A stretch of 64,000 nucleotides of DNA from Pandoraea horticolens. GTDB taxonomy: Bacteria; Pseudomonadota; Gammaproteobacteria; Burkholderiales; Burkholderiaceae. The DNA is taken from the NCBI RefSeq assembly GCF_902459555.1, contig NZ_CABPSM010000007.1, positions 124,001 to 188,000 of the forward strand, in the 5' to 3' direction. Under the pieces are notes generated by a model. The model was not told the DNA's origin. It did no database searches and saw only the letters and a list, made by a program, of their open reading frames with translations. A program made the translations under genes and the position numbers. The number at the start of each line of letters is the position of its first letter. Within the stretch, counting starts at the first letter, position 1. Of this stretch, positions 32,836 to 35,614 are shown piece by piece.

Positions 32836-33705
32836 TCACGATCCCGGACGATGAATCGAAACGAAAAATTCGGATGGTGGCCGCCCGAAGTGTTTTTTGA
32901 AGGCAACGGCATAGGCACTATGACTTTCATATCCGCTGTTTAACGCGACCTGCGTGATAGGCGCACCGTCGAGGAGAAGGGTCATGGAAGACATCAGTCG
33001 CGTCTGTTGGCGCCACCGCCCAAATGTCAGTCCCGTGCATTTCTGAAAGCGACGATGGAATGTCTTGGTGCTCATGGCCAATGTTGCGGCCCAATCGTCT
33101 GCCATAGCAGGATGCGCGGGATCGCTAACCAGCGCGTCGCACACCCGCCGAATTTGCGCATCGGATGGCCAGGGCAGATGAAATGGCAGCGGGGGCTGTA
33201 AGCCCAATTCCTCCAGGAGCAAGTCCCCCAGAAGTTTTTCGCGTTTCGAATGAGCGGATTTGAGATCCAGGGACGTCAATGCGCCGATCAGCTCCCGCAA
33301 CAAGGGGGAGACATGGAGAACGCAGTCCTGCGCCGGCAGGCGCACCGCTGCAGCTTCGTGGATAAAGATGCCATGGACCGCGGCAGGCGCGGGTATGACC
33401 AGACGATGGGGTATGCCAGGCCGCAACCAGACGGCAGTGGTCGGGGGGACCAGCCAGCGTCCCGTGGCAGCCTCGATCAGCAGGACACCGTCGGCGGCAT
33501 AAAGCAGATGTCCCCGGCGGTGGGAATGCTCAGGCACGACATGGCCCGCCGGGTATCGGGTGACTACGCCGGTAATGGGCAAATCGGAAGACTCGTGATC
33601 GCCGAGGTCGAGCGCCCTGGCACCTTCTGACGGAGAAGCAAACCCCATTTCGAGACGCATGTCCATTTTGATAAAGAATATGTCCATTGTTCTGTAGATG
33701 GACAT
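32836..33705 (-). CDS. AraC-family regulator with N-terminal cupin
   Basis: About 289 aa from the first ATG at 33705. Starts at 33666, 33660 or 33651 are also possible and none has a clear ribosome site. The N-terminal half is a cupin (VVPEHSHRRGHLLYAADG). The C-terminal half has two HTH motifs (WAATLAMSTKTFHRRFQKCTGLTFGRW; ITQVALNSGYESHSAYAVAFKKHFG). Repeats of ATGTCCAT over its own start region suggest autoregulation; if those are operators, the later start codons are more likely. Confidence 0.85.
   Translation of the reverse strand: MSIYRTMDIFFIKMDMRLEMGFASPSEGARALDLGDHESSDLPITGVVTRYPAGHVVPEHSHRRGHLLYAADGVLLIEAATGRWLVPPTTAVWLRPGIPHRLVIPAPAAVHGIFIHEAAAVRLPAQDCVLHVSPLLRELIGALTSLDLKSAHSKREKLLGDLLLEELGLQPPLPFHLPWPSDAQIRRVCDALVSDPAHPAMADDWAATLAMSTKTFHRRFQKCTGLTFGRWRQQTRLMSSMTLLLDGAPITQVALNSGYESHSAYAVAFKKHFGRPPSEFFVSIHRPGS
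33659..33705. promoter_or_regulatory. Three ATGTCCAT boxes at the araC start
   Basis: ATGTCCAT at 33659-33666 and 33680-33687 is repeated directly with exactly 21 bp spacing, two helical turns. An inverted copy, ATGGACAT, lies at 33698-33705. Direct repeats on one DNA face are the usual AraC-family operator arrangement. Confidence 0.55.
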
Positions 33706-33755
33706 CGCGGTCAAGCCTATATTTCCATCAGGAGATCATGTTTTAAGACAAGCTC

Positions 33756-33857
33756 ATGTGCGCTTTCCTACTGCTTCCGCGACAGCTACTACGTCTGACA
33801 CCCGGTCGGGGTCTGGACGCATTCACCTGCGTCATGACCCATCCTGATTCCCCCTGA
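33756..33857 (+). CDS. leuL: Putative leucine leader peptide upstream of leuA
   Basis: 33-codon ORF ending 68 bp before leuA. It begins MCAFLLLPRQLLRL, with six Leu in the first 14 residues and seven overall. Ribosome stalling at these codons under leucine shortage would change the pairing of the overlapping hairpins downstream. No strong ribosome site precedes the ATG, which lowers confidence. The alternative is a chance ORF. Confidence 0.55.
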   Translation: MCAFLLLPRQLLRLTPGRGLDAFTCVMTHPDSP

Positions 33858-33897
33858 CCCCGACCTCGGCCAGCTTCCTCCAAGCAGGGGAATCAGG
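33804..33897 (+). promoter_or_regulatory. Alternative hairpins of the leuA leader
   Basis: Two perfect stems interleave and cannot form together as simple hairpins. GGTCGGGGTC (33804-33813) pairs with GACCCCGACC (33856-33865). CCTGATTCCCC (33843-33853) pairs with GGGGAATCAGG (33887-33897). The left arm of the second lies inside the leader ORF. No long T run follows, so control of ribosome access to leuA is as likely as termination. Confidence 0.6.
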
Positions 33898-33925
33898 TGT
33901 TCCCGATTCCTTCTTCGAGGTTTTT

Positions 33926-35614
33926 ATGTTGGCAAATCCTTCCTCAAAGTATCGTGCGTTTCCGGTCATCGACATGCCGGATCGGCAGTGGCCATCGCGC
34001 GCGCTGACCCAAGCCCCCATCTGGCTTTCGACCGATCTGCGAGACGGCAATCAGGCGTTGTTCGAGCCGATGAATCGCGAGCGCAAACTGCGCTTGTTCA
34101 ACGAACTGGTGCGCATCGGTTTCAAGGAAATCGAGGTGGGCTTCCCTGCGGCGTCCAGAACCGACTTCGAGGTCGTGCGTCATTTGATCGACGCCAGTCT
34201 CATACCGGATGACGTGACCCCAATGGTCATGACGCAATTGCGAGAAGACCTGATCGAGGAAACCGTACGCAGTGTTCAGGGCACGCGCCGGGTGATTGTC
34301 CATTTCTACAATGCCATCGCTCCGGCTTGGCGCGAAATCGTCTTCGGCATGAGCGTGCCGCAGATCATCGAGATGGTTGAGCACCATATCGCCTTGTTCG
34401 GGAAGCTGATCGCCCAACATCCGCAAACGGAATGGGTGCTCCAGTATTCTCCCGAGACTTTCTGCATGGCGGAATTGGACGTGTCGCTCGCCGTGTGCAA
34501 TGCCGCCATCCGCGCATGGGATGCCGGGCCGCAACGGCCCATGATCGTCAATCTCCCCACGACGGTCGAAGTTTCCACGCCCAATGTCTTTGCAGATCAG
34601 ATCGAATGGATGCATCGCCGGTTGGAGCGGCGTGAGCATGTCGTGCTGTCTGTGCATCCGCATAACGACCGCGGAACAGGTATCGCATGCGCCGAACAGG
34701 CGATGCTGGCGGGTGCGCAGCGGGTCGAGGGCTGCCTGTTCGGCAACGGCGAGCGCAGCGGTAACCTGGATGTCGTCACGCTGGCACTGAACCTGTACAC
34801 GCAGGGCATAGCGCCGGGACTGGATTTTTCCGACATTGCTGCGCTGGCGCGCATCGCCGAGGAATGCACCGCCTTGCCGATTCACCCGCGCCATCCCTAC
34901 GTCGGCGATCTGGTGTTTACCGCGTTTTCCGGCTCGCATCAGGATGCCATTGCCAAGGGCTTTGCCGCGCAGAACCCCGACGGGATCTGGCGTGTTCCTT
35001 ATCTGCCGCTCGATCCGCACGACCTCGGACGCACCTACGACAGCATCGTGCGCGTCAACAGCCAGTCGGGCAAAGGCGGCATTGCGTTTCTCCTGCAACG
35101 CGATTACGGCGTGGTGATGCCTCGCCGCATGCAGATCGAATTCAGCGCCATCGTTCAGGAACTGGCCGATACCAGCGAAACCGAGCTGACCAGCGAGCAG
35201 ATCTGGGCCGTCTTCGAGACAACCTATCTTGTTCATGACGACGACAGCGCCGGTCATGCCTATCGGCATCATCGCCTGTTCGATACGCCGCAGGGCCAGG
35301 GCATTGAACTGGAACTGGTGTCACCGGACGGGACTGTGCTTACGCGCCAAGGCGTCGGCAATGGTCCCATCGCGGCAACGGTCGCGGCCCTTGGCCTGCC
35401 GTTGCGCATCGACAGCTACGAGGAGCGCAGCCTCAGCACGGGTGCGGATGCTCTGGCAATGGCGATCGTGGAAACGGTTTGGCCTGGTGTGCCGGGTTCC
35501 CGCTTCGGCGTGGGAAAGCATCGGAACATCGTTACCGCGTCGGTACTTGCGGTACTGAGCGCTACCGCGAGATTCTCCAAAGCGCCTGAGCTTGAAATGG
35601 AGGGGCATTCCTGA
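33926..35614 (+). CDS. leuA: 2-isopropylmalate synthase
   Basis: 562 aa, the long LeuA form. It condenses acetyl-CoA with 2-ketoisovalerate in the first leucine-specific step. The TIM-barrel catalytic motifs are TDLRDGNQAL (metal-binding Asp at about 40) and SVHPHNDRGTG (metal His at about 244 and 246). GCLFGNGERSGNLDVVTLALN closes the barrel. The C-terminal half carries the leucine-sensing regulatory domain, so feedback inhibition is expected. The start has GAGG 5 nt upstream, within reach of the leader hairpins. Confidence 0.95.
   Translation: MLANPSSKYRAFPVIDMPDRQWPSRALTQAPIWLSTDLRDGNQALFEPMNRERKLRLFNELVRIGFKEIEVGFPAASRTDFEVVRHLIDASLIPDDVTPMVMTQLREDLIEETVRSVQGTRRVIVHFYNAIAPAWREIVFGMSVPQIIEMVEHHIALFGKLIAQHPQTEWVLQYSPETFCMAELDVSLAVCNAAIRAWDAGPQRPMIVNLPTTVEVSTPNVFADQIEWMHRRLERREHVVLSVHPHNDRGTGIACAEQAMLAGAQRVEGCLFGNGERSGNLDVVTLALNLYTQGIAPGLDFSDIAALARIAEECTALPIHPRHPYVGDLVFTAFSGSHQDAIAKGFAAQNPDGIWRVPYLPLDPHDLGRTYDSIVRVNSQSGKGGIAFLLQRDYGVVMPRRMQIEFSAIVQELADTSETELTSEQIWAVFETTYLVHDDDSAGHAYRHHRLFDTPQGQGIELELVSPDGTVLTRQGVGNGPIAATVAALGLPLRIDSYEERSLSTGADALAMAIVETVWPGVPGSRFGVGKHRNIVTASVLAVLSATARFSKAPELEMEGHS

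Follow-up and report, generated by a model that had tools for sequence, protein, structure and literature searches.

A conserved leader pseudoknot and probable ribosome-gated leucine attenuator upstream of leuA in Pandoraea horticolens

The DNA analyzed here, referred to as the window, is a stretch of 64,000 nucleotides from a contig of Pandoraea horticolens. Its forward strand carries leuA (33926 to 35614), which on the basis of the list of open reading frames (ORFs) and Pfam encodes a 2-isopropylmalate synthase with a LeuA allosteric domain. A gene for an AraC-family regulator (32836 to 33714, reverse strand; Pfam) is oriented divergently and is a conserved neighbor of leuA, with a relative at 69 of the best 80 loci described below (more than 1 kb distant for L096 and L101). 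Between the two genes, on the forward strand, lies a leader ORF of 33 codons plus a UGA stop (33756 to 33857) whose product, MCAFLLLPRQLLRLTPGRGLDAFTCVMTHPDSP, contains an LLL and an LL cluster. The sequence and the ORF list bear out the preliminary description of this region on that point, and the GAGG that it assigned to the leuA ribosome site is present at 33917 to 33920 of the forward strand. No tRNA is located near leuA.

A protein scan of GTDB-species contigs yielded 458 LeuA relatives, of which the best 80, with 67 to 93% identity, were retained; these derive from Herbaspirillum, Paraburkholderia, Alcaligenes, Comamonas, Delftia, Pseudomonas, Halomonas, Serratia, and other genera. Using a pairing scan, the structured element described below was detected at 69 of these best 80 (of 458) loci, in Beta- and Gammaproteobacteria. 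Counts over 70 loci refer to the window plus these 69, with L002 dropped as the same locus as L088. Five of the accepted loci had low scores of 37 to 41 (L059, L064, L088, L093, and L098), and the scan found no element in 11 of the 80 (L046, L067, L069 to L072, L092, L096, L099, L101, and L106). The L106 sequence nevertheless contains P1b/P3/P2b-like sequence by eye. The L046 locus of Pectobacterium aroidearum appears to hold a decayed element, whose arms are recognizable although some pairs are broken and a gap interrupts P2 on its 3′ side, and its LeuA is 81% identical despite this decay.

Two helices, P1 and P2, make up the core of the element, and all four arms (forward strand) are marked by covariation. 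The P1 5′ arm, GGTCGGGGTC (33804 to 33813), encodes a conserved GRG motif and matches the 3′ arm, GACCCCGACC (33856 to 33865), in 10 of 10 pairs. The P2 5′ arm, CCTGATTCCCC (33843 to 33853), encodes part of the motif PDSP and matches the 3′ arm, GGGGAATCAGG (33887 to 33897), in 11 of 11 pairs; this last strand is the proposed switching strand. The two perfect, interleaving stems of the preliminary description are thus confirmed. It had placed one arm in the coding part of the leader, which is correct as far as it goes, but both 5′ arms are located there and the UGA stop (33855 to 33857, forward strand), situated at the P2/P1 junction, overlaps the P1 3′ arm. The loops contain smaller structures on the same strand: a 6-bp hairpin in loop L1 (33816 to 33821 with 33828 to 33833), suggested by comparing L1 folding with that of shuffled sequences, and the P3 hairpin in loop L3 (GCTT CCTCC AAGC, 33873 to 33885), which begins 7 nt past P1 and has 4 bp in the window. 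The fold of L1 was more stable than the average of dinucleotide-shuffled versions at 61 of the 70 loci (−8.8 versus −3.7 kcal/mol in the window), and the same held for L3 at 61 of 70 loci, a set from which the window is excluded (−2.3 versus −2.5 kcal/mol).

The combined score of P1 and P2 was 60, a value never attained when the 170 nt preceding leuA were dinucleotide-shuffled 500 times (best, 55), whereas the single-helix scores were equalled in 7 and 11 of 500. It is therefore the combination of the helices, and above all their conservation, that lies beyond chance. A per-locus shuffle test covered 37 element loci, up to L071. For 32 of these the result was 0/100, and the remaining counts were 1 (L065), 3 (L059), 10 (L064), 11 (L068), and 15 (L066). 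The per-locus score alone is unspecific, as the element-less L004 and L024 also gave 0/100 via unrelated helices, and L002 gave 0/100 but in the wrong register.

Conservation was examined with two alignments. The first, A1, consisted of 69 rows picked by the pairing scan, with L064 left out for its poor P2 placement. P1 and P2 were paired in 94.3% of the A1 cells, a percentage inflated by this mode of selection, and 13 of the 21 pairs had changed on both sides. Double-changed cells numbered 165 compared with 55.5 in shuffles, no shuffle of 500 matched any of five measures, and sliding the partners cut pairing to 31 to 60%. The second alignment, A2, contained the window and the 33 best LeuA matches chosen regardless of pairing. 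Here 97.7% of the cells were paired, 10 of 21 pairs were double-changed, and 32 double-changed cells were counted versus 9.4 after shuffling; again, 0 of 500 shuffles reached these values. Covariation analysis, the check suggested in the preliminary description, thus supports both helices. A1 has 27 columns with no or almost no variation, and 24 of them fall in P1, P2, or P3. A covariance model, R1, contains P2 only because such models cannot represent pseudoknots. With strict filters that lose weak matches, it was matched by 4 out of 300 genomes from the order and by 4 out of 398 from the phylum, and all five distinct hits (L115 to L118 and L125) have a LeuA relative directly downstream.

P1 and P2 interleave, are separated by a short junction, and show covariation within the same molecules; for this reason they most likely coexist as a single H-type pseudoknot whose junction is 2 nt long. 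We infer from the sequences that the two helices would also coexist in the cell. The spacer of 2 nt between P2 and P1 was fixed by the construction of the scan; L1 measures 29 nt at 41 of 70 loci and L3 measures 19 to 26 nt at 53 of 70. The preliminary description had the two stems exclude each other. We rejected this arrangement on the grounds of geometry and covariation, as the short junction, the common L1 length, the loop hairpins, and the joint covariation all fit coexistence.

The leader itself is evidently under selection as a coding sequence, judging from the comparison of loci. Its frame is free of stops across the 15 codons before P1 at 70 of 70 loci, compared with stops at 52 and 5 of 70 in the other two frames, and these 15 codons include on average 4.9 leucine codons in the leader frame versus 1.1 and 0.8 in the others. 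In the window, the leucine codons 5′ of P1 are CUA (33768), CUG (33771), CUU (33774), CUA (33786), CUA (33789), and CUG (33795). Over the 70 loci, CUA accounts for 154 of 346 (45%) leucine codons in the 15-codon stretch, whereas within the leuA genes (first 1650 nt) it accounts for 25 of 3473 (0.7%), a 60-fold bias. The position of these codons is constrained as well, with 6 nt between the end of the last leucine codon and P1 at 57 of 70 loci and with the leader stop −18 to +14 nt from the start of the P1 3′ arm at 62 of 70. The leader start codons vary among the loci, and several are without a clear Shine-Dalgarno sequence by eye. A second start, AUGUUUUAA (Met-Phe-stop), occurs in the window at 33738 to 33746 with AGGAG just 5′ of it; it shares the frame of the leader AUG, from which it lies 18 nt upstream, and the corresponding start of L031 and L032 reads through into the leader.

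A short leucine-clustered leader ORF before a leucine gene, conserved among relatives, is expected of a ribosome-mediated leucine attenuator and was found across the 70 loci. The leucine attenuator proposed in the preliminary description is supported: relatives retain the leucine codons, with their bias toward CUA, as well as the stems, and the lack of conservation that would have spoken against it was not observed. In the Salmonella leu attenuator, replacement of CUA by CUG reduced sensitivity, according to the available text of PMC1183508, which cites Carter 1986. The CUA bias and the open frame provide strong evidence that leucine would be sensed by the position of the ribosome.

On this basis, the leader most likely serves to switch leuA on when leucine runs short, and we assign a probability of roughly 70% to a ribosome-gated leucine attenuator in which the pseudoknot acts as an anti-repressor. 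When leucyl-tRNA is short, the ribosome would stall at the CUA and CUG codons 5′ of P1. The pseudoknot could then form and trap the P2 3′ arm, so that the leuA ribosome site would be open and leuA would be made. With ample leucine, translation would proceed to the stop codon, where the ribosome would sit on both the P2 5′ arm and the P1 3′ arm; the P2 3′ arm released in this way would fold, together with the L3 strand, over the leuA ribosome site, turning leuA off. Shut-off would occur mainly via blocked initiation and perhaps also via termination where a U-tract is present, as in the window. The ribosome footprint reaches about 12 nt downstream at most, according to the part of PMC4833913 available, and thus a ribosome on the CUA pair at 33786 to 33791 should leave P1 free; one at the stop codon is predicted to occlude the 5′ arm of P2 and the 3′ arm of P1.

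The off-structure was evaluated by folding with a ribosome placed at the leader stop. In the window this fold gave a long hairpin of −26.9 kcal/mol in which GGGGAATC (33887 to 33894) pairs with GATTCCTT (33905 to 33912). The 3′ half of the proposed off-hairpin (33905 to 33920, forward strand) is completed by pairing of 33913 to 33915 with 33882 to 33884 and, at the base, of the GAGG with CCTC (33877 to 33880) of L3; the off-hairpin from 33877 to 33920 has a predicted energy of −17.8 kcal/mol. Behind its base, a U5 tract (33921 to 33925, forward strand) abuts the leuA AUG. The preliminary description had noted the lack of a U-run after the second stem. None is found behind P2, but this tract follows the Shine-Dalgarno sequence at the base of a third hairpin that had not been listed.

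Off-state tests were performed on the 58 of 70 loci with no more than 50 nt from P2 to leuA. When the 5′ part was masked, accessibility of the 20 nt preceding leuA was lower than with shuffled L3 and P2 strands at 42 of 58 loci (p = 5e-5) and lower than with species-swapped strands at 43 of 58 (p = 1e-5), p values that are too small because the loci are related. At least half of eight ribosome-site positions were paired to the element at 36 of 58 loci versus 47% in swaps, a modest excess. Pairing of the P2 3′ arm (P2b) with the downstream region, taken alone, reached p ≤ 0.05 at 19 of 58 loci against shuffles that preserve base composition only and at 3 of 58 against swaps, with P2b re-placed by hand in L064, L088, and L093; the window values were 0.08 and 0.19, respectively. 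Such downstream pairing was no more common than in swaps (55 of 58 versus 95%). The mean accessibility of five Shine-Dalgarno bases over the 58 loci showed no fall between the on state (0.31) and the off state (0.35), and none in the window (0.21 and 0.20, respectively). The modelled off-structure is thus moderately supported, and the partner that is mutually exclusive with the pseudoknot would be a third pairing, between the P2 3′ arm and the region before the leuA ribosome site. Control of that site, which the preliminary description had raised as a possibility, is plausible. On these results, we regard occlusion of the ribosome-site region as a best guess and not as a demonstration.

The U5 tract directly behind the off-hairpin makes termination possible in the window, where the hairpin runs straight into UUUUU. 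Classical transcription attenuation, with the hairpin at 33877 to 33920 and the U5 tract as an intrinsic terminator and the pseudoknot as an antiterminator, is nonetheless an unlikely explanation. At least five T among the eight nucleotides after the site were found at only 18 of 58 loci (the window included), a run of five T anywhere from P2 to leuA occurred at 11 of 58, and U-rich spacers before an AUG are ordinary. A terminator pattern scan returned one terminator-like site versus 0.4 expected, located elsewhere than the off-hairpin. In favor of termination, this mechanism has been predicted for the Shewanella leuA leader (PMC2659441, as far as the text was available). An unconserved U-tract would also suit a Rho-dependent mechanism, in which the C-rich region from 33843 to 33881, including the P2 5′ and P1 3′ arms, is exposed once the ribosome departs from the stop and loads Rho, with the stalled ribosome and the pseudoknot masking it. 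Seliverstov et al. raised the possibility of Rho for Mycobacterium cys leaders that lack a terminator (PMC1262725, in the portion available). We consider this improbable, as it does not account for the additional base pairing between the freed strand and the region upstream of leuA.

Less probable again is a riboswitch-like role, in which the pseudoknot would bind a protein or a small molecule and the leader peptide would be incidental. The element is compact and structured, and, in the available part of PMC1262725, Seliverstov et al. proposed protein binding for the actinobacterial LEU element and described leader mutations of Streptomyces coelicolor leuA with some effect, inconsistent with classical attenuation. 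The 60-fold CUA bias, the frame open at every locus, and the recurrent 6-nt spacing, however, require that translation matters, and the columns of A1 that scarcely vary lie largely in P1, P2, and P3. Rfam 15, including the T-box and the known riboswitch and leader families, gave no gathering-score match in the window or ten relatives, and at E ≤ 10 the sole match in the window was a microRNA (E = 3.2) outside the element; we thus rejected a riboswitch or T-box. Programmed frameshifting, by which an H-type pseudoknot suitably spaced 6 nt past the leucine codons would move ribosomes into the leuA frame, was rejected as extremely improbable, because leader and leuA stand in all three possible frame relations (29, 21, and 20 of 70 loci), so that no fused product is conserved.

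For the preferred ribosome-gated attenuator, the closest described relative is the actinobacterial LEU element (Seliverstov et al. 2005, PMC1262725), which, in the portion available, has a leucine-run leader, a pseudoknot, and a base stem between leucine codons and the Shine-Dalgarno sequence. Both occur upstream of leuA, both have a leucine-run leader ORF with a pseudoknot 3′ of the run, and, as far as that source describes, further attenuator parts, e.g., a terminator, are missing. The leaders described here differ in their CUA-rich leucine codons, in the proposed switching strand (the P2 3′ arm plus L3), in their proteobacterial hosts, and in lacking the base stem. For this stem the mean score was 13.3 versus 12.9 with swapped partners, with 3 of 58 loci at p ≤ 0.05, and we rejected it for the element; such a stem did appear when one Microbacterium record (L120) was folded. 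Given the shared leucine-run leader and pseudoknot and the absent base stem, we file the element beside the LEU element as a variant of ribosome-mediated leucine attenuation; it appears to work like the LEU element. The leuL leader of Salmonella and Escherichia coli and the Shewanella leader likewise share a leucine leader peptide, CUA control codons (PMC1183508), and leuA as output (PMC2659441), as far as the available parts of these sources go, and have alternative structures such as are proposed here. They use nested hairpins and an intrinsic terminator, in contrast to a proposed pseudoknot anti-repressor with an unconserved U-tract. We found no description of the knotted design or of this element in Proteobacteria in a literature search largely confined to open-access papers, and leuA is not named in the main text of PMC2965389, so far as it was available.

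We tentatively suggest, at slightly below even odds, that the element represents a distinct, unreported attenuator class of Beta- and Gammaproteobacteria, a ribosome-gated pseudoknot anti-repressor of ribosome-site occlusion that travels from genus to genus with an araC-leuA module and whose ancestry is shared or convergent with the LEU element. Pseudoknot leucine switches would then be a general alternative to hairpin-terminator attenuators. If the proposed mechanism is right, amino-acid attenuation is possible without nested hairpins, the leader ribosome either opening or sparing a pseudoknot whose state can decide access to the downstream ribosome site, and an RNA family absent from Rfam 15, as far as the scans show, is added. 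The rare-codon-rich form without a conserved U-tract could also provide a clean model beside the puzzling LEU element, with its unclear leader-mutation results. The output part may differ at six loci from Hydrogenophaga, Acidovorax, and Azohydromonas (L102, L104, L105, L107, L109, and L110), which have a long P3 and a gap of 67 to 81 nt between P2 and leuA.

The AraC-family regulator possibly provides a second layer of leuA control. A relative of its gene is also found at loci that lack the leader, e.g., L067, and transcriptional control may therefore be the older layer. The sequences TGTCCATTTTG, GTCCATT, and TGTAGATGGAC lie at 33659 to 33705, at −266, −244, and −233 relative to leuA, and at least one of them occurs in 29 of 81 upstream regions, including those of the leader-less L067 and L069 to L071; these boxes are a possible candidate operator.

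The genome holds three LeuA genes, of which the window leuA is one. Its best match in each of 31 other genomes of the genus has at most 59% identity, and the gene was therefore probably acquired. A plasmid source of the leuA module was rejected, as positions 33700 to 33990 had no DNA match among plasmids and the LeuA matches of 239 plasmid records were without exception below 60% identity. The other LeuA2 gene of the genome (contig C5, L111) has its own leader, MITAQFSLSLRLLARSTGLGPLLRACIV, and resembles the window in having a CUA-codon leader ORF before leuA. It is a different RNA, in which base pairing is possible between the leucine codons CUACGAC and a GUCGUAG farther downstream. The P1/P2 scan detected nothing in 26 loci with this other LeuA2 type (L005 to L030, 25 of the same genus and one of another family), and 25 of these 26 have both CUACGAC and GUCGUAG upstream of leuA. 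The two sequences are paired in the fold of the same-genus L007, and this pairing in the second LeuA2 leader is reminiscent of the actinobacterial base stem.
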